64,000 nt of DNA from Flintibacter muris (lineage in GTDB: Bacteria > Bacillota > Clostridia > Oscillospirales > Oscillospiraceae), in NCBI RefSeq assembly GCF_943192995.1, contig NZ_CALPCP010000007.1, positions 1-64,000 of the forward strand, given 5' to 3'. A program made the translations under genes and the position numbers. Every line of letters starts with the position of its first letter. The stretch's first letter is position 1. The notes under the pieces are model-generated. The model searched no databases. It saw only the letters and a program-made list of their open reading frames with translations, and was not told the origin of the DNA. Of the stretch, positions 2,253 through 64,000 are shown one piece after another.

Positions 2253-2281
2253 AGCAGTCATACTCCTTTCTGCTCCGGCGA

Positions 2282-2983: not shown

Positions 2984-3122
2984 ATGTAATTCCTCCTCAA
3001 ATCTGATCGGTTTTGATGAAACCTCTTGTGTTTTCTGCGATTTCATATTAATATAAAACAATCCAAAAGTAAAACAGCGTTTTTTTAGATTGTTAACAAA
3101 AGAAATTTGTGGGGGTGTTCCC
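2984..3122. promoter_or_regulatory. Divergent promoter region, LysR gene / RraA-like gene
   Basis: This 139-base intergenic stretch is strikingly AT-rich compared with its neighbours and contains a dyad around TTTCATATTAATATAAAAC at about 3043-3061. LysR proteins usually bind such divergent regions (T-N11-A boxes), so it is the probable operator for both genes. Exact promoter elements are not clear enough to assign. Confidence 0.5.
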
Positions 3123-4079: not shown

Positions 4080-4106
4080 CACAACTGTGTCACGCTCCGC
4101 TTTTCG

Positions 4107-5615: not shown

Positions 5616-5633
5616 TTGATTTACACCTCCCGC

Positions 5634-6080
5634 TTACGGCATTTTTGTCTTCAGAATGAAGGTAAACAGCACATACAGGAACCCTACCAGCCCGCAGGGG
5701 ACTAAAATCATCGCCAGCTTATTGCGTGCGTAGTTAAACCACATCAGGCCGGCGGTAAACAGCAGAGACGGAATGATGAAGCCAACAAGATCCACCGCGA
5801 TGACATAAATAACGATGAACACAAATACCAAAAGAGGATACTTAATCTCTTCCCACTTCATATTTTTGAAGCGGGCCTCCCCTTTCTCTGCCGCCCGGGA
5901 GTCCCGGATTCCGTTGACCAGCATGGCTGTTGCCAACGCAGCGAAAATCAGAAGAATCAGGATGGGAAACTGCCTGGCCTCAGCGCTCTGCACTGTGAGC
6001 GCATGGAAGATCAGAAACGCGCTCAGGGCCAAAAGAAGAATCGCAATGATAATGTCTTGGCTCCAGCTTTTTTTCTTCAT
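5634..6080 (-). CDS. tctB: Tripartite tricarboxylate transporter, small permease TctB
   Basis: 148 residues with four predicted hydrophobic segments (about residues 10-28, 38-60, 80-108 and 115-142), matching the size and layout of TctB. It starts MKKKSWSQDIIIAI. It lies between tctC and tctA with short gaps, so its partner is the TctA channel. TctB is the least conserved subunit, so the assignment rests partly on position. Confidence 0.85.
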   Translation of the reverse strand: MKKKSWSQDIIIAILLLALSAFLIFHALTVQSAEARQFPILILLIFAALATAMLVNGIRDSRAAEKGEARFKNMKWEEIKYPLLVFVFIVIYVIAVDLVGFIIPSLLFTAGLMWFNYARNKLAMILVPCGLVGFLYVLFTFILKTKMP

Positions 6081-6108
6081 AAAGGAGACCCACCTTTCTT
6101 AATCAACA

Positions 6109-6144
6109 GCGCCGCCGCAGGGGCAATGCGACATACGGCGGCGC
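6109..6144 (-). terminator. Intercistronic hairpin between tctC and tctB
   Basis: GCGCCGCCG at 6109-6117 pairs perfectly with CGGCGGCGC at 6136-6144. There is no T-run after it on the minus strand, so it is more likely an RNA-stabilising or attenuating stem protecting the tctC part of the message than a full stop. Confidence 0.5.
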
Positions 6145-6166
6145 TTCGCGGTGTCCGTTCCGAATC

Positions 6167-7180
6167 TTATTCCCAGCCCAGCTCAGGCTTCAGCGCAACC
6201 ACATCGGACTCCTGACCCCGCAGGAAAGAGAGGTAATCTTCGCCGTCCATATAGCTGACCATCAGGCCCAGCGCCTCCAGCTCAGCGATGTGGTCGGCGT
6301 CGTTGATGGCCTCGTTAAACGCCTTGACAATGGCCTCCTTGGTAGCGGCGTCCACGCCGGAGGGGAGGAAATAGCCGCGGGAGGGGGCGGAATAGACGGC
6401 ACCGAAGCCGGCCTCCTCCAGGGTGGGCACATCAGGCAGCACATCGATCCGCTTGTCATTGAACACACACAGCACGTCCAGCTCATCGTCGGCCAGGACG
6501 GAGGCAATGTCGTCGTAGGTGGCGGAGACAGCGTCCACCGTGCCGCCCAGCAGAGCGGCGTAGTTGTCAGACCAGCCGTTCTGGTGGACGGAGGTGAGGG
6601 TGGCGTCCGGGTTGGCGATGCCGGTCTCAATCACAGCGATGTGCTTGTTTCCGTTGGCGCCCACGTCGCCCACTGTCACACCGCCGGAGCTCTTGGCGGC
6701 CTCCATAAAGGCGCCGATGTCCGCATAGGCACCCTTGGCGCAGACCAGGACTCCGTAGTCAATCACCTCGTTGCAGATGAAGTCGAAGTCGTCCATGGTT
6801 TCCTTATGACCCTGGGAGGGGTCCAGATAGTCATAGAACAGGGCGGGGGTGTTGACCATAGCGATGGTCTGGCCGTCCTTGTCGGCGTGAAGCAGCTGGT
6901 CCCAGGCCATCCAGCCGTTGGCGCCAGTCACGTTCTGAATCACAAAGGTGCCCCCGGTCTTCTTCTCAAGATAGGTGGCCAGGGAACGGACCTCCAGGTC
7001 GGAGGAACCGCCGGCGCCGAAGCCGCACAGCAGGGTGACGGTCCCGTTAGGCCAGCTACCGCCGTTACCGTTGGCGGCACTGGGGTTGCTGCCGCCGCCG
7101 GGTGTGGAGGAATTTCCGCAGCCAGCCAGCAGGCTGACGCACATGGCGGCCGCAAGGATCAGAGCGCTGAGTTTTTTCAT
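6167..7180 (-). CDS. tctC: TctC/BUG-family substrate-binding lipoprotein
   Basis: 337 residues. The N-terminus MKKLSALILAAAMCVSLLAGCGN is a lipoprotein signal with lipobox LAGC, followed by a Gly/Ser/Asn-rich linker. The mature part has the BUG pattern (GTVTLLCGFGAGGSSDLEVR near residue 50; late motif VPTLEEAGF). In a Gram-positive it would be anchored outside the membrane and deliver substrate to TctAB. It is the first transporter gene in transcription order, consistent with the need for excess binding protein. Confidence 0.9.
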   Translation of the reverse strand: MKKLSALILAAAMCVSLLAGCGNSSTPGGGSNPSAANGNGGSWPNGTVTLLCGFGAGGSSDLEVRSLATYLEKKTGGTFVIQNVTGANGWMAWDQLLHADKDGQTIAMVNTPALFYDYLDPSQGHKETMDDFDFICNEVIDYGVLVCAKGAYADIGAFMEAAKSSGGVTVGDVGANGNKHIAVIETGIANPDATLTSVHQNGWSDNYAALLGGTVDAVSATYDDIASVLADDELDVLCVFNDKRIDVLPDVPTLEEAGFGAVYSAPSRGYFLPSGVDAATKEAIVKAFNEAINDADHIAELEALGLMVSYMDGEDYLSFLRGQESDVVALKPELGWE

Positions 7181-7231
7181 GGTAATTTCTCCTTTTTACT
7201 GTAATTTGATTTAAAAAACGTTTGCTTTCAA

Positions 7232-7795
7232 TCAATACTTTTCAAGCCCTTTGACTGAGCAATTGAATACAAAGATGTCCACCGTGCGCACAAAATCGGA
7301 TTCCAGCGTCTGGTAGGACCGTTCCCCCTCAAAGGAGTGGGTGGCAATCAGGTGGACGACATTGTCCGGAAGTCCGGCTTTGCCGGCAATCAGCGCGCCG
7401 GAGAGCGGGTGGCGCATCAGCTGGAAATTCTCGCTGTGAACGGCCCCGCCCTTTCCGTCCGGCACAAACTCGGTCAGCTTGCCGATGTCGTGAAGCAGGG
7501 CGCCCGCCACCACCACGTCCCGATCAAAGGGAATTCCGTGTCGGAGGTAATATTTTTTCATCTGGTCAAACTCCAGGATGCACATCTGGGTCACATCGGT
7601 CACGTGCTCGATCCAGCTCACATCACACCCCTTCCAGCTCAGGGTTACCGGCGCGCCGGCCAGGTTGGCCTCGTTCCAGCCCCCCTGCTCCATGGCCATG
7701 GCCATCGCTTTCTCTGAGCGTTCGCGCAGTTCCTTGTCCTCAATTTCTAAAAAAGCCGAAAACACTTGCTCCAAATAATTTCGATCCACCATCAT
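7232..7795 (-). CDS. HD-domain hydrolase of unknown substrate
   Basis: 187 residues. HD-superfamily residues are visible: an early His (SWIEHVTDV), the doublet LLHDIGKLTEF, His in RHPLSGALI and ATHSFEGE, and a late Asp in VRTVDIF. These coordinate metal in phosphohydrolases of this group. It begins at tandem ATGs (7795 and 7792) after GGGAGGAG. It sits between tctC and a D-2-hydroxyacid dehydrogenase on the same strand. A role in the carboxylate pathway is inferred only from position; it could equally be a nucleotide phosphohydrolase. Confidence 0.75.
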   Translation of the reverse strand: MMVDRNYLEQVFSAFLEIEDKELRERSEKAMAMAMEQGGWNEANLAGAPVTLSWKGCDVSWIEHVTDVTQMCILEFDQMKKYYLRHGIPFDRDVVVAGALLHDIGKLTEFVPDGKGGAVHSENFQLMRHPLSGALIAGKAGLPDNVVHLIATHSFEGERSYQTLESDFVRTVDIFVFNCSVKGLEKY

Positions 7796-7844
7796 TTCTC
7801 CTCCCAGCGTTTATTATCGTTTCTCCTCCCGGCGTTTATTGTCG
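7795..7844. repeat. Two tandem 25-bp units before the HD gene
   Basis: 7795-7819 and 7820-7844 match at 23 of 25 positions, and a third unit begins (TTTCTG) before diverging. Each unit contains the complement of a GGGAGGAGAAA ribosome-binding site, so the HD gene has a duplicated Shine-Dalgarno region. Confidence 0.8.
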
Positions 7845-7934
7845 TTTCTGTCTGGCTGCTACCTATTTTAATATAGCCCCACCCCAATGGCAAACAGAGT
7901 TTTTTAGGCTTCTTCACAAAATATTTTTGTGATT

Positions 7935-8912
7935 CTATTCCTTCTCAGCGGGCAGAAACGCTTTGTTTACAAGGTGTGCCGGTTCTTTTCCCGCCGCGAA
8001 GTCCCGGATGTCCTGAGCCAGCATGGGCATGATTATGTCACCGATGTCCGCTGTCCCGCCGCCGATGTGGGGGGTGACGATGATGTTAGGCTCGGTGAGT
8101 AGCGGGTCGTCGACGGGGAGGGGCTCCCGCTCCACGCCGTCCAGGCCGGCCCCGGCCAGCTTGCCTGAGCGTACTGCCTGTACCAGAGCGTCGTCGTCCA
8201 CCAGCCCGCCCCGGGCGGTGTTGATGACGATGGCCCCGTCTTTCATCCGTTTCATCTGCTCCGCACCCAGCATGTGGCGGGTGGAGTCCAGCAGGGGCAC
8301 ATGGAAGGTGATAATGTCAGAGGTCTCGATCAAGGTCTCCAGGGGCACATAGATCATGCGGCACTGCTCCTCCAGGTCGGCGGGGAGGCGGCAGGGGTCG
8401 TAGTACTGCACCTGAGCGCCAAAGGCCTGAACCTTGGCGGCCACCTGACGGCCAATGTTGCCTCCACCCACGATACCCACCAGCTTGTTGTTCAGACAGA
8501 AGGAGCTGTTCAGATAGGTATTTTTGCTCCACTCTCCCTGGGTCAGGCTCCAGGTATGGCACAGAAGCTTGCGCCCTACCGCCAGCATCAGCATCACCGC
8601 CAGCTCGGACACCGCCCCGGCGTTGGCGCCGGGGGTGTTGGTCACCAGGATGCCCCGCTGGCCGGCGGCTTCAATGTCTACGGAGTCGTAGCCAGCCCCC
8701 CAGCGCAGGATCATCTTCAGCTTGGGATTGCGCCCGATCACTTCCTTGGGGGCCTTGAAGATGCGCAGGATCATGACCTCCGCGTCGGTCATGGCGTCGT
8801 AGGCCTCCGGGGTATCTACCGCTTTCAATCCGAACTGCTCCTCAGGCAGCATGGCCCGGAGTTTCTCATAGGTCCCGGCGGGATACTGGCCCGCTAAAAC
8901 AACATTTACCAT
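7935..8912 (-). CDS. D-2-hydroxyacid dehydrogenase (second copy)
   Basis: 325 residues, MVNVVLAGQYPAG... The NAD-binding motif GIVGGGNIGRQ is in the middle, with catalytic Arg (INTARGG), Glu (VEREP) and His (TPHIGGG) in family order. Start ATG 8912 follows GAGGGGG. It is separated by 13 bases from the upstream metallolyase gene, so they are co-transcribed. Together with the dehydrogenase at 1293-2252 it gives the island two enzymes of one family, perhaps acting on successive intermediates or opposite stereoisomers. It is not a close duplicate of the first. Confidence 0.85.
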   Translation of the reverse strand: MVNVVLAGQYPAGTYEKLRAMLPEEQFGLKAVDTPEAYDAMTDAEVMILRIFKAPKEVIGRNPKLKMILRWGAGYDSVDIEAAGQRGILVTNTPGANAGAVSELAVMLMLAVGRKLLCHTWSLTQGEWSKNTYLNSSFCLNNKLVGIVGGGNIGRQVAAKVQAFGAQVQYYDPCRLPADLEEQCRMIYVPLETLIETSDIITFHVPLLDSTRHMLGAEQMKRMKDGAIVINTARGGLVDDDALVQAVRSGKLAGAGLDGVEREPLPVDDPLLTEPNIIVTPHIGGGTADIGDIIMPMLAQDIRDFAAGKEPAHLVNKAFLPAEKE

Positions 8913-8925
8913 CGGTTCTTCCCCC

Positions 8926-9924
8926 TCATTTCAAAGCGGCGGCGGTCCTGGCGATCAACTCGTCGGACGGGGCTTTCTGATCGACGGCGGATACCTCGAC
9001 AATCAACCGGTAGAGGTTTACCTGATGCTCCTGAGCGGCGGCCTTGAACTTCTTCAGGAAACTGGAGTGGCAGCCGGACAGTCCCAGTACCAGGTCCAGA
9101 GGGGGGACAGGGTTGTGGTAGCTGTGAGCATCCATAGCGGGCTGTAGGCGCTTGTCGATAAAGTCCAGCATCCCGTACAGGTCAATCTCTTTCATCTGGC
9201 CGTACCGCCGCATGATGGCCACGCACATCTCGGTGGCTAGGTTGCCTGCGCTGCGGGCCATCCCCATCAGTCCGCAGTCCAGGATGGCGGCCCCGTTCTC
9301 ATAGGCGGCCACCGCGTTGGCGGCGGACAGCCCCAGGTTGTTGTGGCAGTGGAAAGCCACAGGGATGGAGACAGTCTGAGTCAGTTTCTCGGTGTACTCC
9401 GCCACCTGGCCGGGGAGCATGGTGCCGGCGGAATCCATAATGGTGATCTCATCCAGCCCAGCGTCCTCCAGCTTTTTGGCCTCCTCGGCCAGTTGGTCGG
9501 CAGTGAGCAGATAGGCTTTCATCTCGGAGTAAAAAGCTTTCAGCCCCGCTTTCTTGATGTCCCGGACGGCCGGAATGGAGATATCTCCGTCACCGGCGTC
9601 TGCTCCGACCCGCAGGAAAGATAGACCGCTCTCTTTGGCCAGGGCCACATTTTTCTCCCGATACCGCTTGGCATTGAGAAACATGCCCAGCTGGGAACCC
9701 CGGTTTAAATATTTTTGGGCTATGTCCAAGTAGGTCTGGTCGGTCTCTGCGTTGGTAAAGCCCGCCACCTCATAGGCACCGATCCCGCCGGCGTTGCCAA
9801 ATTCAATGATAGGCACATGGCAGCTGGTCAGCCCGTCCAGCACCATGTCTGTAATTTCGGCGGAGAAGCCTTTCCCTACCACGTTCGCACCGTCGCGCAG
9901 GGTACAGTCCATTAAGGTTATCAT
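8926..9924 (-). CDS. DRE-TIM metallolyase (HMGL/4-hydroxy-2-oxovalerate aldolase-like)
   Basis: 332 residues from ATG 9924, which has AAAGGAGGA seven bases upstream. The N-terminal ITLMDCTLRDGANVVG carries the D-x-T-L-R-D-G metal and substrate motif, and FHCHNNLGLSAANAVA contains the His-x-His metal ligands. The pattern is closest to pyruvate-forming aldolases such as DmpG/HpaI-type 4-hydroxy-2-oxoacid aldolases, but HMG-CoA lyase or isopropylmalate synthase relatives share the motifs. It is first in the minus-strand operon running into the dehydrogenase, HD gene and transporter. It probably performs the carbon-carbon cleavage step of the pathway. Confidence 0.8.
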   Translation of the reverse strand: MITLMDCTLRDGANVVGKGFSAEITDMVLDGLTSCHVPIIEFGNAGGIGAYEVAGFTNAETDQTYLDIAQKYLNRGSQLGMFLNAKRYREKNVALAKESGLSFLRVGADAGDGDISIPAVRDIKKAGLKAFYSEMKAYLLTADQLAEEAKKLEDAGLDEITIMDSAGTMLPGQVAEYTEKLTQTVSIPVAFHCHNNLGLSAANAVAAYENGAAILDCGLMGMARSAGNLATEMCVAIMRRYGQMKEIDLYGMLDFIDKRLQPAMDAHSYHNPVPPLDLVLGLSGCHSSFLKKFKAAAQEHQVNLYRLIVEVSAVDQKAPSDELIARTAAALK

Positions 9925-10038
9925 AATCTTCCTCCTTTGCTGTACTCGATCCAATCAGTTTCTGGGTATATTCAGCTTATCAGAAGTGCTACACAATTTC
10001 AAACAGTTATTTTTTCGTGTTTTTCACAGTCTCAAAGC

Positions 10039-10067
10039 TGTTAAATAGCCACAAACTATGATATAAT
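10039..10067 (+). promoter_or_regulatory. Extended -10 promoter of the second LysR gene
   Basis: TATAAT at 10062-10067 is preceded by TGA, making an extended -10. A weak -35 TGTTAA is 17 bases upstream (10039-10044). The region 9925-10095 also serves the divergent metallolyase gene. Confidence 0.6.
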
Positions 10068-10095
10068 GGGGCAGACCTTAAAGGGAGGCGAGGAA

Positions 10096-11061
10096 ATGGA
10101 ACTGAATTCATTCCATATTTTTTTGACCGTAGTTGAGGAAATGAATTTTTCACGCGCCGCAAACCGCCTGTATATCACACAGCAAAGCCTGTCCGGACAT
10201 ATCAAGCGGCTGGAGGAACATTACCATGTGAAACTTTTTCAGCGCCGGCCCCGGCTGTGCCTGACTCCGGCGGGAGAAGCTATGGTTTTTTATTCAAGAC
10301 ACATTTTGGAATCGGAACATGCTATGGTCGCCCGATTCGCGGATTTATCTCAACGGTCTGTCGGGATTCTCCGCCTCGGATTGTCCCATCAGCGCAGCAG
10401 CGCCTTTTTTCCGGGAATCTGGAGCCGCTACCACCCCGAATATAAAAATATTTCTGTTCGATTGCAGGAAAAACTGACTACTCCTCTTCTGGAAGATCTG
10501 TTGGCCGGAGATATTGATATCATGGTGGGAGTGGATATTCCCCCTCTGTCCGGCCTGGAAACTGTTCTTCTGGCTCAGGAGCAGATGCGCTGTATTATGA
10601 ACGAAGTGCTTTTGAAAGAATACTTTCCGGAAAGCTGGCAGGACATGCTGGAGCAGTATGCCCAAGACGGCGTTGACCTCATGGAGCTAAAAGAAATGCC
10701 GCTCATCTTGCTCTCCCCTCCCAACCGCCTGCGGCAGCCTGTTGATCAGCTATTCCGAAAGCATAATGCGATCCCCAACATCGCTCTGGAAACCGCCTCT
10801 CACAGCCTGCTCTATCAGTTGGGCTGCCACGGGAGTGGAGTCGCAATCGCAAATCCCCTGAGTCTGTATGAACAAATCAGACTCAGGGGACTCCCGCCGA
10901 AGGAATGTCACAGCTTTTTATTGCAGGGAATGCCAAAGCGTTCTGTTTCACTTGCTTACCGAAAAGATGCGGAAAAAACAAAATACATGATGGGGATGGT
11001 TGACGCCATCGTAGAAGAATTTGACTATTATATAGAGTTTCTAAATCGATTTTCATTGTAG
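10096..11061 (+). CDS. LysR-family transcriptional regulator (downstream copy)
   Basis: 321 residues from ATG 10096, behind GGGAGGCGAGG. The N-terminal HTH contains FSRAANRLYITQQSLSGHIK, followed by a LysR substrate-binding domain. It is divergent from the metallolyase-dehydrogenase-HD-Tct operon and is its likely regulator. Its HTH strongly resembles that of the LysR at 3123-4079, with the same spacing of NRL, QQ-LS-HI-RLE and LTPAGE-like motifs, so the two arose by duplication. Local base composition is lower in GC than in the enzymes nearby. Confidence 0.88.
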   Translation: MELNSFHIFLTVVEEMNFSRAANRLYITQQSLSGHIKRLEEHYHVKLFQRRPRLCLTPAGEAMVFYSRHILESEHAMVARFADLSQRSVGILRLGLSHQRSSAFFPGIWSRYHPEYKNISVRLQEKLTTPLLEDLLAGDIDIMVGVDIPPLSGLETVLLAQEQMRCIMNEVLLKEYFPESWQDMLEQYAQDGVDLMELKEMPLILLSPPNRLRQPVDQLFRKHNAIPNIALETASHSLLYQLGCHGSGVAIANPLSLYEQIRLRGLPPKECHSFLLQGMPKRSVSLAYRKDAEKTKYMMGMVDAIVEEFDYYIEFLNRFSL

Positions 11062-11095
11062 CGCAATCTCGTCAAACAGTGGCAATACGAAAAAA

Positions 11096-11131
11096 GCGGG
11101 ATCGGCCGTGCAGGTCGGTCCCGTATTTTCT
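11096..11131 (+). terminator. Terminator of the second LysR gene
   Basis: CGGGATCGGCC (11097-11107) pairs with GGTCGGTCCCG (11113-11123), allowing G-U pairs, and is followed by TATTTTCTG. It lies 35 bases after the LysR stop and just before mobile-element debris. Confidence 0.6.
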
Positions 11132-11139
11132 GTCCTGCG

Positions 11140-11733
11140 CGCCGCAAATCTCCTTGACCTGATTGGCAAAGCGTGCGCCGGAGTATCCCCCATCTACCAG
11201 AAACTTCTTTACACAGGAAAGATTGTCCCGGTTAAAAAGGATCATCTGAGCGGCTCCATCCCGGTCAGTCACATCAGCGGTTGTTACGGCTATGGCATGG
11301 GGCAGCCCCATCGTATCTACGACAACATGGCGTTTGATTCCACATACTTTTTTCCCGCGTCATACCCTTTTTCTTCCGCTGTGTCAGCATTCTGCACACT
11401 TTGCGCATCAACAATTCCAAAAGTGGTCTTATCCTGCCGCAGGTCCTCATTCCGTATCCGCTTTACCAATTTGTGCAGAACCTTGTCAAGAACACTGACG
11501 CCTGTCGCATCTTTTTCGGCCCATACCCGGAAATAATAGTACACGCTCTGCCATTCGGGATAATCGCTGGGCAGCATTCGCCATTGTATTCCACCCTGCA
11601 CCACATACAGCACTGCACAAAACACATCGTACAAATCGTACTGTCTTGGACGCGTTCTTTTTCGTGCTCCTTCCAAATCCTCTCGAATCAAATCATATTC
11701 TTCCCGGCTGATATCGCTTGGATATTGATGCAT
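11140..11733 (-). pseudogene. IS5-family transposase, C-terminally truncated
   Basis: The first frame (11733 to 11317) gives MHQYPSDISREEYDLIREDL... with QGGIQWRMLPSDYPEWQSVY, typical of the N-terminal part of IS427-group transposases. It ends at a stop after a run of six A residues (11348-11353 on the plus strand). A -1 shift on that run continues as KKVCGIKRHVVVDTMGLPHA and FLVDGGYSGARFANQVKE, the DDE core with its DGGY motif. This shift is the normal expression mode of the group. The C-terminal part with the last catalytic Glu is absent, replaced by unrelated residues. Confidence 0.75.
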
Positions 11734-11811
11734 CCTATCCTCATCTCCCGCCTGTTTTCCCTTATTATCTACTTCTCTCCCCCTCTTGTCTAAAGTTTTT
11801 AAACAGGCTCT
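11140..11811 (-). mobile_element. IS5-family (IS427-like) insertion sequence remnant
   Basis: The upstream (transposase 5') end is recognisable as GAGCCTGTTTAAAAACTTT read on the minus strand at about 11793-11811. The other end is missing: transposase coding sequence breaks off near 11140 and runs into the LysR terminator region. The element has landed in, and truncated, the HTH gene that ends at 11799, whose last residues come from the IS end. It is a non-mobile relic because one end and the transposase C-terminus are gone. Confidence 0.7.
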
Positions 11812-12245
11812 GAGTGCGCACTGTTGCTGTGGAGTGCGGGTGCTGTTGCGACCTGCTGACGCTCAGCCGTCGTATCCATCTGCGCCAGTTGCTGTTCGTA
11901 GAACTGGTCGAGCGCCAGTTGAATCGGACGGATGGTGTAGAGCAGATTGCTGTTGCGCTTCAGACCGACCTTGGTGGTGACGGTCGTGTTCTCTGTACTG
12001 ATGAGTTGGCAATCTTCCAACTCACACACATACTTACGGACGGTGTTGGCACTCATCCTCACCGCTCTGCCGATAATCTTGTAGCTGGGCCAGCACTGGT
12101 AGGTGCTCCTGTTCTCGCAGCAGAGTAGGTACGAGTAGACCGCCAGTGCGCCCGGTGATAGGCCCAGCAGGAATATCTCGTTGGGCAGCTGGAAGTAGTT
12201 CTTGACTGGATCACGCTTTGGACATGGTGGTACTTCACCCCGCAC
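11799..12245 (-). pseudogene. Helix-turn-helix protein of mobile elements, truncated by the IS
   Basis: 148 residues from a GTG at 12245. The segment NYFQLPNEIFLLGLSPGALAV plus SYKIIGRAVRMSANTVRKYV resembles the winged-HTH proteins often coded beside excisionase and relaxase genes in Firmicutes ICEs. The reading ends HSNSAHSEPV and stop; the last codons (GAG CCT GTT TAA) are the terminus of the adjacent insertion sequence, so the original C-terminus is lost. The start codon is uncertain, because no proper ribosome-binding site is visible. It overlaps the end of the excisionase relic. Confidence 0.65.
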
Positions 12246-12397
12246 CTCCCTGGGTGTGCCGCGACACCCACTCCACGAATTTCTCTTTGGGCACCACGAG
12301 CCTGTTGCCGATTTTGAGAACCGGAAGCGAAGGAGTAACAGAGGGCGCGAAACCGAGCACTATTTCGGGGGGCAGGAATATAATTCAAATCGGTCAT
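12235..12397 (-). pseudogene. Excisionase (Xis)-like gene with internal deletion
   Basis: The first frame starts MTDLNYIPAP, a common start for excisionase-type HTH proteins. A different frame ends with LPVLKIGNRLVVPKEKFVEW, the C-terminal half of the same family, to TGA at 12235-12237. The central helix-turn-helix residues expected between these blocks are missing and the frames do not match, so the gene has lost an internal segment. It belongs with the truncated HTH gene downstream as the relic of an integrative element. Confidence 0.6.
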
Positions 12398-12463
12398 CCC
12401 CTTATACGATTGATACTCGACGCTCCACAGTATATAATTGAAATATGCCGCTGAGTTTTATTC

Positions 12464-12495
12464 TTGACCAAATTTTGACTTTCTCCCTATATGAT
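12464..12495 (+). promoter_or_regulatory. Direct-repeat operator/promoter of the two-component genes
   Basis: TTGACC at 12464-12469 and TTGACT at 12475-12480 are direct repeats exactly 11 bp apart, one helical turn. A -10 TATGAT follows nine bases later (12490-12495). The same layout occurs at 15024-15055. This is how OmpR/PhoB-type regulators activate promoters, so autoregulation is likely. Confidence 0.65.
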
Positions 12496-12517
12496 GAAAA
12501 AGACTGGAGGTGTTCAC

Positions 12518-13192
12518 ATGGCATACAGAGTTTTGATCGTTGATGATGAACTTATCCTGACCGAACTGCTTTCCACCCATTTGCAGGATCACGGCTATAT
12601 GGTTTCCGTAGCCAACAGCAGCGATGAAGCCCTGGCAAAGCTGACTACAAAGCCAAATCTCATTCTGCTGGACATCAATATGCCGGGGATGGACGGGCTG
12701 GAGCTGTGCAAGGTCATTCGGAATCATATCGTCTGCCCCATCCTGTTCCTGACGGCGCGGATCACAGAGCAGGATAAGGTCAACGGCCTGCGGGCCGGAG
12801 GGGACGACTATATCACCAAGCCGTTCGGCTTGCAGGAACTGATTGCCCGCATTGAGGCCCATCTGCGCCGGGACGAGCGGAATAACCGCCCGCCGGAGGT
12901 CGTGACCTCTCAGGGGCTGATTATCAATCTCTCTGATAGAAAAGTATTTTGGAATGAGCAGGAGCTTTCCTTTTCCAAGAGGGAATTTGACATCATCGAA
13001 TTTCTGTCCTCTAACCCCAATCAGGTCTTTGACAAGGAGCGCATTTATGAGGCGGTATGGGGCTATGACGCGGAGGGCGACAGCAACGTGATTAAAGAGC
13101 ATATCCGCAAAATCCGCGCAAAGCTCATGCAGGCCAGCGGAAGTGAGTACATCGAAACAGTTTGGGGGATGGGCTACCGATGGAAAAAGTAA
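12518..13192 (+). CDS. OmpR/PhoB-family response regulator
   Basis: 224 residues from ATG 12518 (GGAGG eight bases upstream). The receiver domain (about 1-120) has the acidic pair in LIVDDE, phosphoacceptor Asp in LLDINMPGMDG and Lys in ITKPF. The C-terminal winged helix (about 128-222) has RKVFWNEQELSFSKREFDII and the final ETVWGMGYRWKK. The histidine kinase gene overlaps its end by 13 bases. The direct repeats at its own promoter and at 15024 are its probable targets, linking it to the lipoprotein/ABC operon. Confidence 0.93.
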   Translation: MAYRVLIVDDELILTELLSTHLQDHGYMVSVANSSDEALAKLTTKPNLILLDINMPGMDGLELCKVIRNHIVCPILFLTARITEQDKVNGLRAGGDDYITKPFGLQELIARIEAHLRRDERNNRPPEVVTSQGLIINLSDRKVFWNEQELSFSKREFDIIEFLSSNPNQVFDKERIYEAVWGYDAEGDSNVIKEHIRKIRAKLMQASGSEYIETVWGMGYRWKK

Positions 13193-56171: not shown

Positions 56172-57719
56172 TTATTTGGCATATTCAATGGCCTTGGTCT
56201 CACGCAGGAGGTGGACCTTAATCTGGCCGGGGTACTCCAGCTCATCTTCGATTTTCTTGGCGATATCCCGGGCGAGAAGGACCATCTGGTCCTCGCTGAT
56301 GACCTCGGGCTTGACCATAATCCGGACCTCACGGCCGGCCTGGATGGCGAAGGACTTCTCCACGCCGTTGAAGGAGGAGGTAATTTCCTCCAGGGTCTCC
56401 AGACGCTTGATATAATTTTCCAGATTCTCCCGCCGGGCGCCGGGGCGGGCGGCGGAGATGGCGTCAGCCGCCTGAACCAGGCAGGCCACCACCGTTTTGG
56501 GCTCTACATCGTTGTGATGGGCGTGGATGGCATGGATGATGTTCTCGCTCTCCCGGTACTTCCGGGCCAGCTCCACGCCGATCTGCACATGGGAGCCCTC
56601 CACCTCGTGGTCGATAGACTTGCCCAGGTCGTGGAGCAGTCCGGCCCGCTTGGCCTCGGTGACGTTGGCGCCGATCTCGGCGGCCAGCAGTCCGGCCACG
56701 TGGGACACCTCAATGGAGTGGTTGAGCACATTCTGACCGTAGCTGGTGCGGTAGCGCATCCGGCCCAGCAGCTTGACCAGCTCGGGGTGCAGGCCGTGGA
56801 CGTTAGTCTCGAAGATGGCCCGCTCGCCCTCCGACTTGATGACCATGTCCACCTCCCGCTTGGCCTTTTCCACCATCTCCTCAATGCGGGCGGGGTGGAT
56901 GCGGCCGTCCAGGATCAGCTTTTCCAGGGCCAGCCGGGCGATCTCCCGGCGGACGGGGTCGAAGCAGGATACGGTGATGGCCTCAGGGGTGTCGTCGATA
57001 ATCAGATCCACTCCCGTGAGGGTCTCCAGGGTGCGGATGTTCCGGCCCTCACGGCCGATAATGCGGCCCTTCATGTCGTCGTTGGGCAGGGGGACCACCG
57101 ATACGGTAGCCTCTGACACATGGTCGGCGGCGCAGCGCTGGATGGCCAGGGAAATAATCTCACGGGCCCTGGTGTCCGCCTCGTCCTTGAACCGGGCCTC
57201 AATCTCCTTGATCTTCATGGCGGACTCGTGGGTGACATCCTCCTCCAGCTGGTTGAGCAGATAGCTTTTGGCCTCCTCCGAGGTAAAGCCGGAGATGCGC
57301 TCCAGCTCGGTCACCTGCTGCTGCTTCAGCTGTTCGGCCTCGGCCTGGGTGGCGTCCAGCTTGGCAATCTTGGCGGACAGCTGTTCCTCCTTGCGCTCGA
57401 TGTTCTCCATCTTGCGGTCCAGGTTCTCTTCCTTTTGCTGCAGACGGTTTTCCTGGCGCTGCAGCTCACTGCGGCGGTCTTTTACCTCTTTTTCGTGCTC
57501 GTTCTTGGCCTTGAGGATCTCCTCCTTGGCCTCTACCAGGGCCTCGCGCTTTTTGCTCTCGGCGCTTTTGTAGGCCTCGTTGACAATGCGGGTGGCCTCA
57601 TCCTCGGCGGACTTGATCTCCCGCTCGGCGGTGGCCTTGCGGCGGTTCCAGCCGAAGAGAGCGCCGCCCAGCGCGCCAATCACCAGCCCGATCACCGCTG
57701 CGATGATATAGGGTATCAT
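56172..57719 (-). CDS. rny: Ribonuclease Y
   Basis: 515 residues. Membrane-anchored endoribonuclease that starts mRNA decay. N-terminal helix [20 protein letters not shown] anchors it; a long coiled coil follows (about 25-200, rich in K/E). Then a KH domain ([19 protein letters not shown]) and an HD domain with the doublet in [19 protein letters not shown] plus HAIHAHHND. Length is standard. Transcribed from a consensus promoter at 57907-57935. Convergent with nothing; lspA-rluD lies downstream on the same strand. Confidence 0.97.
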
Positions 57720-57906
57720 TGGGTCTTGTTACACCTCCAAATTTTTCATGACGCGGCGGACCGCCGCGGCGCCTGCCGCCGGAGGTTCCGATTCCGGTAC
57801 AGGCTTGCAGTAAAAGGCCGCAAGGGGCCGGACAGGCGGGCTGCCTGCCCTCCCCTGCGGCAACTGAAAAACATCCCCACAGGTTTTTCAATATTTGTCC
57901 TTCTAT

Positions 57907-57935
57907 ATTGTAAAGGCCAACCGCTTTTCTGTCAA
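57907..57935 (-). promoter_or_regulatory. rny promoter
   Basis: Minus strand: -35 TTGACA (57930-57935), 17-base spacer, -10 TACAAT (57907-57912). The transcript would have a leader of about 180 bases (57720-57900), GC-rich, in which I see no recognised element. Confidence 0.85.
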
Positions 57936-58015
57936 GATTTATTCACATTTGAAATGGAGGGTTTTTTGAAAAATTTTTCCAACACTGGGGGTATGCGCCT
58001 GTTTTTCTATGTTGG

Positions 58016-58137
58016 GGAAATCAATTTTGGAGCTGCAGGGCGGGACGGCCCCGGGGCGCCGCGAGGAAAAGCTCCAGCCAACGGCGTGCCGAGCTGTCCC
58101 GCACTGCAAATCCGGCTGGATGTTCTGAACATTGATG
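58016..58137. repeat. Intergenic palindromic repeat (family A, reversed)
   Basis: Begins GGGAAATCAATTTTGGAGCT and ends CTGGATGTTCTGAACATTGA, the reverse complement of the edges at 27523-27642 and 54259-54380; inner ends GCAGGGCGGGAC and GTCCCGCACTGC. Inserted just before the promoter of the giant gene. Confidence 0.75.
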
Positions 58138-58160
58138 TCGTGTTTCTACACAGTTATCCC

Positions 58161-58189
58161 TTTCCAAACGGAATGGATTGTGCTACAAT
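58161..58189 (+). promoter_or_regulatory. Probable promoter of the 1596-residue gene
   Basis: -10 TACAAT at 58184-58189 with a -35-like TTTCCA 17 bases upstream (58161-58166). The leader would be about 50 bases. Confidence 0.55.
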
Positions 58190-58245
58190 TATCATGAGAA
58201 AATTTTGCCGCTCCAGCGCTTTGGGGCGGCTGATGAGGTGACGGT

Positions 58246-61200
58246 ATGAACAAAATGATCCGACAGTTGAACCGTGATATCCTCGAGGCCCTGGCTGCCC
58301 GCAGGCCGGGGGGGCTGTCCAACCGCCGGGCCCTTCAGGAGATGATGAAGGCGCCCGCCTGGACCGACGGTCTGGCCGCTTTGTTTCCCATCCGGGAGCG
58401 GCTGAGCTGCGCCCGCGTTCTGGAGTTGTGTACCCCCATCCTGGACCGGATATGTCCTCAGGCCCCGGAAAAGGGCTGGGGCCCCTTCTGCTACCAGTAT
58501 ATCTGCGGCGTGATGTACCCAGGCAGCGGCTTTGCCCCGGAGGCCCCCCGGTATGAGAACGGGGCGCTGTTCTATCTCACCGTCCTCCAGCTTCTGCTGG
58601 ACTACGAGCGCTCCGCCCTTCCCTTTGACCCTATGATGGACTTTCAGTTCCTCACAGAGGAGGAGTATGAGGCCTGTGACAAGGCCCGGGAGTACCGCCG
58701 GTTTCTGGCCGCATGGCGGGGAGAATTCCTCTATGAGCTGATGCGCCTGGGGCTGGAGTACACTCCCTTTAAAACGCTGAGCCACATTTCCGGCGTCCAC
58801 TACATCGCCATGACCGCCGCCCGGGGGCTGGCGGAGGCGGGGGTGGAGGTGGATCTGGCCCTCATTTCCGCCGCCGCCGCCGTCCACGATGTGGGCAAAT
58901 TCGGCTGCCGCCCCGGGGAGCGGGTGCCCTACCTCCACTACTACTACACCGATCAGTGGCTGCTGGAGCGGAAGATGGACGACATCAGCCATATCGCCTC
59001 CAACCACTCCACCTGGGACCTGGAGCTGGAGTCGCTGTCGGTGGAGTCCCTGCTGCTCATCTACGCCGACTTCCGCTCCAAGTCGGAGCGGGGCCCCCAG
59101 GGTGAGGAGATCATCATTCTCTACCCCCTGGACCAGTCCTTCCAGGTGATTTTGTCCAAGCTGGACAATGTGGACCGGAAAAAACGCCGCCGGTATGAGT
59201 TTGTCTACGGCAAGCTCCACGACTTTGAGGACTACATGCGCCGCCTGGGGGTGGACGTGGACCTCACCGGAAAAAAGCAGGCCCCCAGTCCGGCCAAGGA
59301 CCCCGCCCTGATGGGGCCGGAGGAGACCCTGAACTGCCTGATCCTGCTGTCGGTGGAGCACAACCTGCAGCTGATGCACATGCTGTCCAACGAGCAGCGC
59401 TTCGGCAACATCATTGAGGCCGCCCGCTCCACCAAGAGCTGGCAGCAGCTGCGAGCCTACCTCAATGTGTTTGAGGAGTACTTTACCTATCTGTCCGTGC
59501 GCCAGAAGACCCAGGCCCTGTCCTTCCTCTATGAGCTGCTGATGCACCGCGAGGGTGACATCCGCCGCCAGGCCGGCGCCCTGATCGGCCAGATTATCGC
59601 CCGGTTCCACCTGGTATACCGCAAAGAGATTCCCAGCCACGCCCAGAACGACCCGGCGGAGGAGGTGCCCTTCACCCTGTGGGGCCAGTATCTGGATATG
59701 ATTATCTTCCCCGACCACAAGACCACCCCCCAGCAGCGCTCCCATATCAGCTACACGTTAAAGCTGGTGGTGGAGTCCATGCTCAACCACGCCCGGCCCG
59801 GGGACATCCCCCGGTTCTTAGACGCCCTGCTCCAGTATTACAACGACCCGGAGCACACCGACGACGACACCGCCTTTACCTTGCTGGACGCCGCCCGCTA
59901 TCTGCCCCCCAAGCACTACGGAGAGGAGACCCGGGCAAAGCTGGTGGACTTTGCCGCCCACTTCTCCGCCGTGGACGACCCCAGGCTGGTGACCGCCGCC
60001 CTCCAGTTCCTGCGGGAGACGGTGCGCAACATCCCCCGCAGCCACCCCCAGATGGCCCGCATTGCCGACCTGGTGGAGGCTGTCCCCTCCAGCCAGCTGA
60101 CCACAGTGTTTCTCAAATGCCGTATCCTCCGCCGGGCGGGACGAGACGTGTCCGCCCTGGAGCATACCCTGTACCACACCGATATTACCAGCGAGGTCTT
60201 TTTGGACAACCTGAAAATCGCCACCCCCTGGGTGGTGAAGGTGGCCGGCGTGGAGCTGCTCCGGGACCAGGTGGAGCACGGGATGGAGGCCCACGTTCTC
60301 CATATCGCCACCCACTTCTCCAACCTGGTCAAGGTGTCTGAGCGGGTGGTGGTGCGGCACACTGCTGGCTCCGCCCTGGTGCACACCCTGTCCCTGCTGC
60401 GCCGGGAGCAGCGCAACGAGGTGGTGGTGGAGCTGGGCAAGGGCCTGGAGATGGGCCAGTATGAGATCTCCAAATATATCCCCCAGTACCTGGGGGAGGC
60501 CGCCTTGTACCTCCACCCCAGCGAGCTGGACGAACAGGTGCTGTGGCTCAAGGGCCTGCTGGGCTCCCCCAACGACTCCGCCGTGGCCGGGGCGCTGAAC
60601 ACCATTGCGGTGCTGCTTCAGCACTACCCCGCCTATCAGCAGCGTTTTTCAGAAAAGCGGGAGGTCTACACCCGGCGGCGGCGGGAGCTGCTGGGCCTGC
60701 TCCTCCAGGGCCTGGCCCACTACCGGGAGACGGTGCGCCAGGAGGCGCTGCTGGTCACCGGCAAGCTGCTGTTTGAAAGCCCCATCCTGGGTATAGAGGA
60801 GAAGGCACACCTGTTCTCCCTCAGCTACCGCAAGCTGCTCTTCCTCACCCAGGAGTCCTCCCGGCAGGACGGCCTCACCTTCTTCTACCGGGCGGCGGCC
60901 CTGGCCCATATCAACCGCTTTATCGCCCTGCGGCGGCTGGACTACGGCCCCTTCACCTTTGAAAAGCCCCGGAAAATCGCCTTCTTCCCCGGCACCTTTG
61001 ACCCCTTCACCCTGTCCCACAAGGGCATTGTCCACGCCATCCGGGACCTGGGCTTTGAGGTATATCTGGCGGTGGACGAGTTCTCCTGGTCCAAAAAGGC
61101 CCAGCCCCACCTGATCCGCCGGCAGATTGTCAACCTGTCGGTGGCGGGGGACTTCCACGTCCACCTCTTCCCCGACGACATTCCGGTGAATATCGCCAAC

Positions 61201-63036
61201 CCCGCTGACCTGCGGCGGCTGACAGACCTGTTCCCCGACCAGAAGGTGTATATTGTGGCGGGCAGCGACGTGGTGGCCAACGCCTCCTCCTACAAGGCCC
61301 AGCCCCAGCCCTTCTCCATCCACCAGATGAACCACGTCATCTTCCGCCGGGCGGGGGAGAAGGAACTGCCCGCCCCGCTGCCCATCACCGGCGAGGTGAT
61401 TCAGCTCCAGCTCCCCCCCCACCTGGAGGACATCAGCTCCACCCGCATCCGGGAAAACGTGGACCTGAACCGGGATATCTCCAACTTTATCGACCCGGTC
61501 ATCCAGGACTTTATCTATCAAAACGGACTCTACCTCCGGGACAGCCAGGAGAAGCCCATGCTGGGCACCGGCGACCTGGAGTTCCAGTGGGTGGGCCAGC
61601 CCGACCCCATATTGATGGACAGCCTCACCGCCGGCCTGTCCGACCGGGGGCCGGTGTGCGCCGCCGTCTTCGACCGGGGGGATTGGATGCTGCTGCTGCG
61701 CCAGGCCGGCCAGGGGGAGATTTTAGGCTATATCGCCTACCGCTCCCTGAGCACCTCCCAGCTCTTTGCCGCCCTGGGGGACACAGAGCTGGCCAACCGG
61801 GTCCGCCTGCGGGCGGCGGGCAACACCCTGCTTATTACCGCTTTGTCCGTTGTGGAGTCGGAGCGGTTTAAGGACTACCGCCAGCTGCTGCTGTGTGAGC
61901 TGCTGGCCCGGGCGCTGGAGGAGGACTGTGTCTACGCCGTCTTCTGTCCCCACGACCGGAAGGTGGACGACAAGCTGGAGGATGTGCTGATCCGCACCGG
62001 CTTCTTAGTCCGGGAGGAGGGCCAGCCCATCTGGGAGACCGACATGCACGCCCCCGCCACCCTCATCCAGAACCTGGAGACCACCATCCAGGACCCCCTG
62101 TCCCGAAATCCCAGGGTGCTGGCGGCCATCCGCCGCAGCCACCAGAGCTTGCAGCGGGCTCTGGCCCGGCTCTATCCCGGCTCCCTGCTGCTTACGTTGT
62201 CTGCCGACATTATCCACCAGCGCCTGCTGGAGAAAATCACCGCCTATAACAATGTCCCCGCCGTTCCCACCACCCCCAGGGTGCTGGGGGAGAACATGTG
62301 CGTCCCCTACGGCAAGCTCCTGCGGGGCAAGACGGTGCCCAATACAGTGACCAAGACCATCCACACCGACAGGGTCTACTCCCCCGACCTGTCTGAGAGC
62401 GTGATGGAGCCCTTCCCCTACTACGCCCCCATTTCCAGCCAGATCAGGACCATCAAATCCTTCGACAGGCCTGTGATTCTGGTGGACGACCTGATGCACC
62501 CCGGCTTCCGCTTCAAGGCTCTGGACCCCATTCTCCGCCGGGAGGGGGTGCCCATCCGCATGGTACTGGTGGGGGTGCTGTCCGGCTATGGCAAGGACCT
62601 GATGGACCACTGGGAGAGGCCGGTGGATTCGGTGTACTTTCTGCCCACCCTGCGCCAGTGGTTTATTGAGGCCACCCTCTACCCCTTTATCGGGGGCAAC
62701 ACCGTCCGGCGGTCCAGCTCTCCGGTGCCCGGACTGCTGCCCGGCATCAACCACATTTTGCCCTACGCCAGCCCCGTCTATCAGGAGCCCTGTGCCCGGG
62801 AGGCGGTGTTCCAGCTGTCCAAGGCCTGTCTGGAGGGGGCGCTGGATATCATTCGCACTCTGGAGCAGGAGTACCGCATCCTCTACGGCCGCAACCTGAC
62901 CCTGGCCCGCCTGCCCGAGGCTGTGATTCTCCCCCTGTGCCCCGACAAGGGCACCTGCCTGCACTACGACCCCACCCTGTCTGCCTCCGTCTACCTGGAA
63001 AACGACCTGGAGCAGCTTTTGAGGCAAAATCAGTAA
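58246..63036 (+). CDS. Giant multidomain protein: HD, helical repeats, NadD-like, GNAT-like, PRTase-like
   Basis: 1596 residues, no signal peptide or membrane helix. In order: an HD-type domain (SGVHYIAM, the doublet His214-Asp215 in VHDVGKFG, then HIASNHSTWD and IYADFRSKSER); a long region of HEAT-like helical repeats (about 390-900); a nucleotidyltransferase domain with FFPGTFDPFTLSHKG at 913 and ISSTRIREN at 1063, as in NadD or CoaD; a GNAT-like segment (about 1105-1255); and a phosphoribosyltransferase-like region with the PRPP-type loop VILVDDLMHPG at 1410. NadD fused or linked to an HD (YqeK) phosphatase is known, but this order and size are not familiar to me. A role in nucleotide or NAD-type cofactor metabolism or its repair is inferred. 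GAGGTG precedes the ATG. Confidence 0.85.
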   Translation: MNKMIRQLNRDILEALAARRPGGLSNRRALQEMMKAPAWTDGLAALFPIRERLSCARVLELCTPILDRICPQAPEKGWGPFCYQYICGVMYPGSGFAPEAPRYENGALFYLTVLQLLLDYERSALPFDPMMDFQFLTEEEYEACDKAREYRRFLAAWRGEFLYELMRLGLEYTPFKTLSHISGVHYIAMTAARGLAEAGVEVDLALISAAAAVHDVGKFGCRPGERVPYLHYYYTDQWLLERKMDDISHIASNHSTWDLELESLSVESLLLIYADFRSKSERGPQGEEIIILYPLDQSFQVILSKLDNVDRKKRRRYEFVYGKLHDFEDYMRRLGVDVDLTGKKQAPSPAKDPALMGPEETLNCLILLSVEHNLQLMHMLSNEQRFGNIIEAARSTKSWQQLRAYLNVFEEYFTYLSVRQKTQALSFLYELLMHREGDIRRQAGALIGQIIARFHLVYRKEIPSHAQNDPAEEVPFTLWGQYLDMIIFPDHKTTPQQRSHISYTLKLVVESMLNHARPGDIPRFLDALLQYYNDPEHTDDDTAFTLLDAARYLPPKHYGEETRAKLVDFAAHFSAVDDPRLVTAALQFLRETVRNIPRSHPQMARIADLVEAVPSSQLTTVFLKCRILRRAGRDVSALEHTLYHTDITSEVFLDNLKIATPWVVKVAGVELLRDQVEHGMEAHVLHIATHFSNLVKVSERVVVRHTAGSALVHTLSLLRREQRNEVVVELGKGLEMGQYEISKYIPQYLGEAALYLHPSELDEQVLWLKGLLGSPNDSAVAGALNTIAVLLQHYPAYQQRFSEKREVYTRRRRELLGLLLQGLAHYRETVRQEALLVTGKLLFESPILGIEEKAHLFSLSYRKLLFLTQESSRQDGLTFFYRAAALAHINRFIALRRLDYGPFTFEKPRKIAFFPGTFDPFTLSHKGIVHAIRDLGFEVYLAVDEFSWSKKAQPHLIRRQIVNLSVAGDFHVHLFPDDIPVNIANPADLRRLTDLFPDQKVYIVAGSDVVANASSYKAQPQPFSIHQMNHVIFRRAGEKELPAPLPITGEVIQLQLPPHLEDISSTRIRENVDLNRDISNFIDPVIQDFIYQNGLYLRDSQEKPMLGTGDLEFQWVGQPDPILMDSLTAGLSDRGPVCAAVFDRGDWMLLLRQAGQGEILGYIAYRSLSTSQLFAALGDTELANRVRLRAAGNTLLITALSVVESERFKDYRQLLLCELLARALEEDCVYAVFCPHDRKVDDKLEDVLIRTGFLVREEGQPIWETDMHAPATLIQNLETTIQDPLSRNPRVLAAIRRSHQSLQRALARLYPGSLLLTLSADIIHQRLLEKITAYNNVPAVPTTPRVLGENMCVPYGKLLRGKTVPNTVTKTIHTDRVYSPDLSESVMEPFPYYAPISSQIRTIKSFDRPVILVDDLMHPGFRFKALDPILRREGVPIRMVLVGVLSGYGKDLMDHWERPVDSVYFLPTLRQWFIEATLYPFIGGNTVRRSSSPVPGLLPGINHILPYASPVYQEPCAREAVFQLSKACLEGALDIIRTLEQEYRILYGRNLTLARLPEAVILPLCPDKGTCLHYDPTLSASVYLENDLEQLLRQNQ

Positions 63037-63049
63037 GGAGGTCCTTTCT

Positions 63050-64000
63050 GTGCTTGACATTCCAAATATCCGCGCTGTGCTGGACACCGCCAGCCGGTGG
63101 GACATGGACCTGGCCCAGTTCGCCTGCTGGGGCCACGCCCATCTGCTGAACCCCGTCCTCCCCCCGGAGGAGCTGGCGGCCTGGGAGGAACTGACCCAGG
63201 TCACCCTCCCAGAGGACTACCGGGCCTATCTCACCCAGCTGGGCAACGGCGGGGCCGGCCCGGCCTACGGGCTGTTTCCTCTCTCCCTGCCCAAGGACGA
63301 GTTCGCCCAATACCTCCAGCAGCCCTGCATCTACAGCGACGGCCAGGAGGAGAAATTTCAGGACGTGGTACAGCGCTTCGTCCACTGGGAGGACTTCGAC
63401 GACGACTGGTCCCTGTATCTGGACTACTTTCCCGACACTCCCTCCTGGAAGGACCAACGGTGGCAGAACGAGCACCGGAAGGAGTGGGGAGACGAGCTGG
63501 ACCGGCTGATCGACCAGACTATTATCTTCCCGCTCCTCCATTACGGCCAGTATCAAATCACCAACGAGGGCTGCTCCGGGGACATCTTTATCATCCTCAA
63601 CGGCTCCCACCGGGGGTATATCCACTGTGCCACCGCCGACTGCGACGCCGGTCTGGCCTTCCGGGAGCCGCGCACCTTTGCCACCTACAAGGAGGACTAT
63701 CTGAAGCGGACCTTTGCAGATTATTTCATGGAGTATGTGAACCGCACAGAGGATGTGTGTAACAATCTGTCCGCCGAAACGCGCCAAAAATTCCAGCGGG
63801 AGCGCGCCCAGGCCCGGGATTTTCTTGCCGCCGTCCAGGCCCGGGACTGGGATGGGGTGGTCAAGCTGCTGAACGCTATTGAGGACCCGGCAGCCTTGTC
63901 TACCAAGAGCAAGAGCCTCTATATCCACTATGATGAAAATCACCTGCTCTCCCCTCTCTCCACAAATCCGGCCGTGAAGCGGTTCTACGATAAGCTCTAT
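63050..64000 (+). CDS. SMI1/KNR4 (SUKH) domain protein, 3' end outside the window
   Basis: Begins with GTG 63050, eight bases after AAGGAGG, and stays open for 317 codons to the window edge. The SUKH pattern is visible: VTLPEDYRAYLTQLGNGGAG near residue 60, then AYGLFPLSL, and later YGQYQITNEGCSGDIFIIL, NGSHRGYIHC and TFATYKEDYL. SUKH proteins are common immunity proteins against polymorphic nuclease toxins and also occur as cytosolic orphans. It follows the giant gene by 13 bases, so it is in the same operon. The C-terminus is unseen. Confidence 0.85.
   Translation, partial: MLDIPNIRAVLDTASRWDMDLAQFACWGHAHLLNPVLPPEELAAWEELTQVTLPEDYRAYLTQLGNGGAGPAYGLFPLSLPKDEFAQYLQQPCIYSDGQEEKFQDVVQRFVHWEDFDDDWSLYLDYFPDTPSWKDQRWQNEHRKEWGDELDRLIDQTIIFPLLHYGQYQITNEGCSGDIFIILNGSHRGYIHCATADCDAGLAFREPRTFATYKEDYLKRTFADYFMEYVNRTEDVCNNLSAETRQKFQRERAQARDFLAAVQARDWDGVVKLLNAIEDPAALSTKSKSLYIHYDENHLLSPLSTNPAVKRFYDKLY

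Follow-up and report, generated by a model that had tools for sequence, protein, structure and literature searches.

A giant HD, HEAT and NadD-fold fusion protein of anaerobic bacteria, conserved with two altered redox proteins

A gene for a giant HD / HEAT / NadD-fold / GNAT-fold / phosphoribosyltransferase (PRTase)-like protein, termed A here, occurs in many anaerobic bacteria, those of the gut among them, and it is nearly always accompanied by one and the same pair of altered redox proteins, B and C. As listed in Table 1, gene A lies towards the end of the window, by which we mean the whole 64,000-nucleotide stretch of Flintibacter muris DNA that was analysed, and B and C follow beyond it. 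The three genes form a conserved module. Our leading, though tentative, reading is that A is a transferase–hydrolase on a scaffold, which would make and remove an adenylylated metabolite other than NaAD in the service of B and C.

All the folds are known; we found no description of their combination, of the altered pockets or of the fixed partners in the literature searched. The initial annotation could match the architecture to no described enzyme, and our own search (titles and abstract openings, with few subscription journals) likewise returned nothing on it.

Table 1. Features of the gene A region and its partner genes (window positions unless marked as contig positions)
Feature	Residues	Position	Strand	Remarks
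Gene A, giant HD / HEAT / NadD-fold / GNAT-fold / PRTase-like protein	1596 aa	58246..63036	+	
HD phosphohydrolase-like domain	178–275	58777..59070	+	H180, H214, D215, D275 invariant in 37/37
HEAT/ARM-like helical repeat scaffold	about 371–900	59356..60945	+	AlphaFold2 model and fold searches
NadD-fold nucleotidyltransferase	909–1098	60970..61539	+	FFPGTFDPFTLSH and ISSTRIR retained; several NadD acceptor-side residues changed
GNAT-fold segment without the usual CoA-binding loop	about 1110–1267	61573..62046	+	Fold search, alignment
Type I phosphoribosyltransferase-like segment (weak evidence)	about 1290–1500	62113..62745	+	Weak profile matches
PRPP-like motif VILVDDLMHPGFR	1410–1422	62473..62511	+	Sequence, alignment
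C-terminal helical tail	1518–1596	62797..63033	+	Conserved
SUKH-like gene	359 aa	63050..64000 (continues to contig base 64129)	+	Insertion between A and B
Gene B, LDH-like	about 413	contig 64157–65395, past window end	+	Profile and alignment
Gene C, FMN-reductase-like	about 350	contig 65882–66940, past window end	+	Profile and alignment

Gene A is a single uninterrupted open reading frame of 1596 codons, and its relatives at 66 loci in other genomes (41–91% identity) bear out the one giant fusion frame that had been proposed. Near-full-length single frames were found at 57 of these loci, at seven the frame stopped at a contig end or no more than 30 bases from one, and it was broken at two (L045 and L067); barring the contig ends and the broken frames, A was one gene at every locus read. 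Since these 66 relative loci hold mostly single frames, the conservation of A as a giant fusion is not chance. The class samples contain relatives as low as 33% in identity that are still in one piece, and other classes of the same phylum also encode full-length relatives. At one locus (L052:6243-12779), the A frame extends about 560 residues upstream of the match, counted stop to stop.

Against four relatives, the whole-gene dN/dS of A was 0.11–0.31. That of its NadD segment was 0.04–0.15, the segments being cut by residue number with boundaries that gaps shift slightly. A Pfam scan of A returned CTP_transf_like at 913–1070 (24 bits; cut-off 21), HD at 178–275 (21 bits; cut-off 22) and no further convincing domain, and no Rfam family was found in 57700–64000. 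We could locate the motifs His214-Asp215, ISSTRIR (1063–1069) and VILVDDLMHPG (1410–1420). The HD and nucleotidyltransferase motifs rank among the best conserved stretches of A, as judged, like all residue counts for A given here, from alignments of 37 rows that were picked for spread and represent a subset of the loci.

The 913–1090 segment, taken for a nucleotidyltransferase in the initial annotation, has a NadD fold according to a structure model and fold search. ISSTRIR is present as had been noted, but there is no H-x-x-H; A has T922-L-S-H925 instead, the first His of the H-x-G-H motif being Ser or Thr in 37/37 rows and the first Gly of the GxFxPxHxGH-like motif being replaced by Pro in 36/37. 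F918, P920, H925 and R958 are kept in all 37, G1006, D1008, S1064, S1065 and R1069 in 36, and R1035 in 35.

The other side of the pocket was compared with the NadDs of 31 loci, chosen without a motif filter. A Trp that is invariant in 31/31 NadDs is Tyr in 37/37 giants, a Thr (30/31) is Asp, Asn or Ser, a Tyr-Thr pair (30/31 and 27/31) falls in a gap, and Pro-Pro-His (28–30/31) becomes Trp, Ser, Lys in nearly all giants. The last Lys of PPHK is retained in 18/37, a pairing that depends on the alignment, since PPHK fell in a gap in a second one. With the exception of one Lys, the 37 aligned giants have replaced the acceptor-side residues that 27–31 of the 31 NadDs conserve.

We take the GxFxPxHxGH-like and ISSTxxR motifs to be the ATP-binding side of the domain, and the W, T, YT (and PPHK) residues of NadD are presumably the nicotinate side. 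Given that the ATP-side residues are kept and the nicotinate-side residues replaced, the ATP half of the transferase in A appears largely functional, and its acceptor half differs. The lost acceptor-side residues would change the acceptor.

Profile scores were also far from those of an ordinary NadD. TIGR00482 gave the giant 34 bits, compared to 140.6 for the NadD of its own genome (cut-off 112.45); with E values up to 10 allowed, this model matches 36/37 A members (best 5e-15), and the NCBIfam NadD models match A far below their cut-offs. The same genome encodes a canonical NadD–YqeK fusion (L091:901-2160, strand −), and a NadD above cut-off was present in 23 of the 24 A carriers tested (24 of 25 carriers were searched for NadD and for ELFV dehydrogenase, G178 being omitted). 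One carrier of A, B and C (G056, locus L075), 98% complete, gave no NadD match at E 1e-15, in view of which a NadD role of A is conceivable there.

Like the NadD–YqeK fusion, A joins a NadD-fold transferase and an HD part in one chain and shares the ATP-side motifs. Unlike it, A has the reverse domain order, a HEAT spacer of about 530 residues, added GNAT and PRTase-like parts, replaced acceptor-side residues and an HD part that is not recognisably YqeK. CoaD (phosphopantetheine adenylyltransferase) resembles A in PGTFDP and in a first motif of the T-x-x-H type, but the NadD models score higher on A, and over a longer stretch.

The H...HD...D metal ligand pattern of the HD superfamily is present in A, so the His214-Asp215 site, described earlier as intact-looking, has kept its ligand residues throughout the alignment (Table 1). 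A kinship with YqeK, the accompanying idea, was not recognisable: when the HD region was aligned with one NadD–YqeK sequence of the same genome, hhalign returned a probability of 0.1%, in the motif region only. In the fold search around the HD part, HEAT entries took up the match list and masked HD. These entries agree with the long helical-repeat scaffold that had been foreseen, which appears HEAT/ARM-like in both the AlphaFold2 model and the fold searches. Family searches with the C-terminal tail gave no family.

The expectation of an acetyltransferase-like segment proved correct as regards the fold, since a fold search of the model gave GNAT, but not as regards the cofactor site: by eye, no CoA-binding loop (Q/R-x-x-G-x-G/A) was seen in the expected stretch of the 37 rows. 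This segment is also the least conserved part of A, with 4 invariant positions in 192 columns.

The PRPP-loop-like motif is indeed present, but the PRTase segment around it is only weakly recognised, and a PRTase fold at 1380–1500 is putative. At a lenient limit of E 10, Pribosyltran matches 21/37 A members (best 6.1e-5); in the same scan, the copy in the window matched no family. In a rescan, 7/10 members matched at 11–17.4 bits, below the cut-off of 26.3. By hhalign, the segment reached 30.6% (E 5e-4, over only 31 columns) against a mixed set and 3.1% against one APRT. A viral fold list contained three PRTase-type entries (E 2–4e-3, high rmsd, without ranges), and a PDB profile search gave one match at chance level (E 0.25). 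In fold searches with the C-terminal model, NadD and GNAT matches took up the lists and masked the PRTase part, and none of the 50 rows listed was a PRTase chain.

Type I PRTases (APRT, HPRT, Xpt) share with A a PRPP-like hhhhDD, found in most rows, and the helix that follows it, and some members give weak Pfam or NCBIfam matches. Unlike them, A has no T-G-T loop and a longer segment, with similarity mostly at the motif region; Xpt-looking PRTases of the same genus (by eye) are also without T-G-T. Nicotinate and nicotinamide PRTases have a fold other than type I, and we assume that the PRPP motif of A is of the type I kind, unlike that of nicotinate PRTases.

The gene order in the window's genome is A, SUKH gene, B, C, with a terminator-like stem 3′ of C; the spacer between B and C measures about 490 bases (L094:3397-3882). 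The SUKH gene starts 13 bases past A on the same strand, which agrees with its having been called co-operonic, but it is not a conserved partner. It was found at only four other loci among those compared, two of them cut short, and some of the loci break off before a SUKH gene could be seen. SUKH is a local insertion outside the conserved module, and the neighbourhood survey shows two redox-type genes, B and C, to be conserved instead.

Of the 81 loci with room to tell, 73 carry B and C downstream of A and on its strand. This count excludes 15 loci lacking room and eight names that stood for duplicates, for copies from the own genome or for ordinary NadD loci. B alone, without C, was found at L015, L033 and L036; at L013 B is present and C is on the opposite strand, at L037 both are upstream of A on the opposite strand, and L077, L085 and L118 have neither.

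A sample of 291 genomes, placed in the class Clostridia from named relatives and possibly overlapping in part with the 66 relative loci, gave a similar count: A was present in 25 (at E 1e-100 or better, weaker matches covering the NadD segment or less), B in 24 and C in 23. At E 1e-20, neither B nor C was found in the 266 genomes without A, the profiles having been built from A-linked copies, so that distant B- or C-like proteins could escape this threshold. Among the A carriers, G178 lacked both partners and G240 lacked C; each is an assembly of more than 300 contigs.

Gene B is like L-lactate and malate dehydrogenases in keeping G119, V121, G122, R205, R279 and H303 (27/27 rows) and D144 (25/27); G119, V121, G122 and D144 belong to the dinucleotide motif. 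It differs from LDH in that the catalytic Asp is Met and the Asn is Asp, both in 27/27, compared to 20 LDHs; the His is retained, although its conservation in the comparison set is by construction, because those LDHs were selected by G[EQ]HG. In the four members scanned, Ldh_1_N reached 19.9–24.4 bits where its cut-off is 27, and there is an N-terminal extension of about 110 residues.

Gene C is like NADPH-dependent FMN reductases and iron-sulfur flavoproteins: FMN_red (PF03358) was above cut-off in the four members scanned, and C210, C213, C218 and C227 are invariant in 27/27 rows. From the four Cys and the FMN_red profile, we predict an iron-sulfur flavoprotein-like protein, in which the four-Cys motif is probably Fe-S. 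It departs from such flavoproteins in the C-x2-C-x4-C-x8-C spacing and in about 160 extra N-terminal residues. The alignments of B and C comprised 27/36 and 27/34 usable rows, respectively, from 38 loci, with pieces of 280 residues or fewer omitted.

In the window's genus, A was present in 59 of 61 genomes and in 31/31 of the good ones. A tree of A made by a quick method clusters the rows mostly by family, with those of families f25 and f101 in at least two places. Phage records contained no match, viral contigs yielded no confirmed relative, and PADLOC at E 1 matched none of A, B, C and SUKH. One record labelled as a plasmid is a 2.63 Mb Acetoanaerobium replicon.

Genes of nitrogen metabolism lie near the module in some lineages. 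An ELFV-family (glutamate-type) dehydrogenase is found 0.4–4.7 kb past C in 7/24 carriers, all of them from f25, the family that supplies 9/24 carriers. Past C, the Clostridium fessum-like loci have a histidine kinase, a YcbB-domain response regulator, a glutamate symporter and an ELFV dehydrogenase, with some of these neighbours absent in some loci, and two f27 genomes have an ammonium transporter and three glutamate-synthase-type genes between A and B. No such neighbours were found in the loci compared from the window's genus. These associations amount to a few events, in lineages related by descent.

At L118 (G606:C1:135001-155000, 1381-12871), an A gene with intact motifs has as neighbours TelA, YceG, a C-C bond lyase and three TerD-like genes, of which two were scanned. 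With four Ter-type probes at E 1e-8, L118 alone was matched among the loci compared, and the window gave no match. Within the 60 kb fetched, neither B nor C was found at L118, L174 or L175.

Starting from the observed domains (to the degree stated above), their conservation, the changed NadD and LDH pockets and the co-occurrence of A, B and C, we infer catalytic activities, a product, a direction of flow, complex formation and a nitrogen role as follows. A would be both enzyme and scaffold of a three-protein module. Its NadD-fold domain would bind ATP and move AMP onto a phosphate-bearing acceptor other than nicotinate mononucleotide, which the PRTase-like segment, by binding PRPP or a phosphoribosyl compound, may supply or recognise. 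The HD domain would hydrolyse the product or faulty versions of it, by analogy with YqeK for NadD. The HEAT solenoid would hold the catalytic parts together and probably B and C too; B, with its NAD-site motif kept and its active site changed, and C would bind, reduce or use the product, and the module as a whole would serve redox or nitrogen (glutamate, ammonia) metabolism in anaerobes. In a minimal Mycoplasma, a YqeK domain fused to NadD splits NaAD and its faulty analogues (PMC9426524); the HD part of A may, by analogy, act as YqeK does in that fusion.

A bolder version of this reading, possible though doubtful, is that A, B and C make up a complete pathway of their own, whose product, an adenylylated dinucleotide, would be a cofactor or signal not yet described. 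A would assemble this dinucleotide from ATP and a phosphoribosylated precursor and break it down through HD. The dehydrogenase-like B and the iron-sulfur flavoprotein C, both dedicated to it, would use it and tie it to the glutamate and ammonia metabolism of anaerobes.

The nearest rival to the transferase–hydrolase reading is a GlnD-style reversible regulator, in which the transferase would nucleotidylate a protein or a small molecule, HD would remove the group, the GNAT- and PRTase-like parts would sense, and B and C would be the targets. A transferase and a hydrolase on one chain would suit such a regulator, as would a GNAT without its CoA loop and an unusual PRPP loop, which sensors would show, and the glutamate, ammonia and two-component genes (YcbB-domain response regulator) near the module in some lineages. 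We nonetheless hold it to be rather unlikely: in 17/24 carriers tested the ELFV dehydrogenase does not adjoin the module, NadD-fold enzymes act on small phosphates, and ligand sensing by the GNAT- and PRTase-like parts is putative. Next comes a Ter-like stress response making a nucleoside-like metabolite, suggested by the L118 copy of A beside TerD, TelA, YceG and a C-C bond lyase, and by the pairing of such lyases with PRTases in Ter operons. As this concerns one locus only, whose A has neither partner in the 60 kb covered, we give it a small chance of being right. Much the same small chance goes to A being chiefly a scaffold with dead enzyme domains: the lost GNAT loop and altered PRPP loop would fit, but the strong conservation of the HD and nucleotidyltransferase motifs and the low dN/dS of the NadD segment speak against it.

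A nucleotide machine of some kind, as the initial annotation had envisaged, is likely; pyridine-nucleotide synthesis, its more specific proposal, is not favoured by our data. A self-contained machine for NAD synthesis or salvage would pass a mononucleotide from the PRTase part to the NadD part, which would make the dinucleotide, and NadD is indeed the closest family by TIGR00482, with G056 as a carrier in which NadD itself found no match. Yet nearly all carriers own a NadD above cut-off, the acceptor-side residues of A are changed in 37/37, its scores are far below the NadD cut-offs, and its PRPP motif is of type I rather than of the nicotinate PRTase kind. We therefore set this very unlikely explanation aside on the profile score, the NadDs of the own genome and of the carriers, and the residue comparison. 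An antiphage or mobile-element system, to which the patchy occurrence in the class (25/291) and the SUKH neighbour in a few genomes might point, is exceedingly improbable: A is core in its genus, its rows mostly group by family, and PADLOC, phage records and viral contigs gave no relative, or none that was confirmed. Antiphage defence was rejected on the genus core, the PADLOC search at E 1, the phage records and the viral contigs.

If A makes a dinucleotide that is not NaAD, biochemistry would have missed a cofactor or signal in a clade that is widespread in the gut and the environment. The A–B–C pattern suggests that some part of bacterial cofactor or signalling chemistry has yet to be described, and the tight co-occurrence of the three offers a small, expressible three-protein target, for which the NadD–YqeK of the same genome is a ready control. 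Even if the product turned out to be a known one, a 1600-residue chain whose HEAT scaffold seemingly brings nucleotidyl transfer together with hydrolysis would merit a structure.

Two duplicate A genes (L077:7826-13842 and L085:6016-12112) form a branch of their own and are 47% identical to each other. Both have damaged nucleotidyltransferase motifs, no B or C, and an adjoining APH-family gene. This hints that decay of the transferase motifs goes together with the absence of B and C, as seen in one duplication; L118, with intact motifs and neither partner, is a counter-example.
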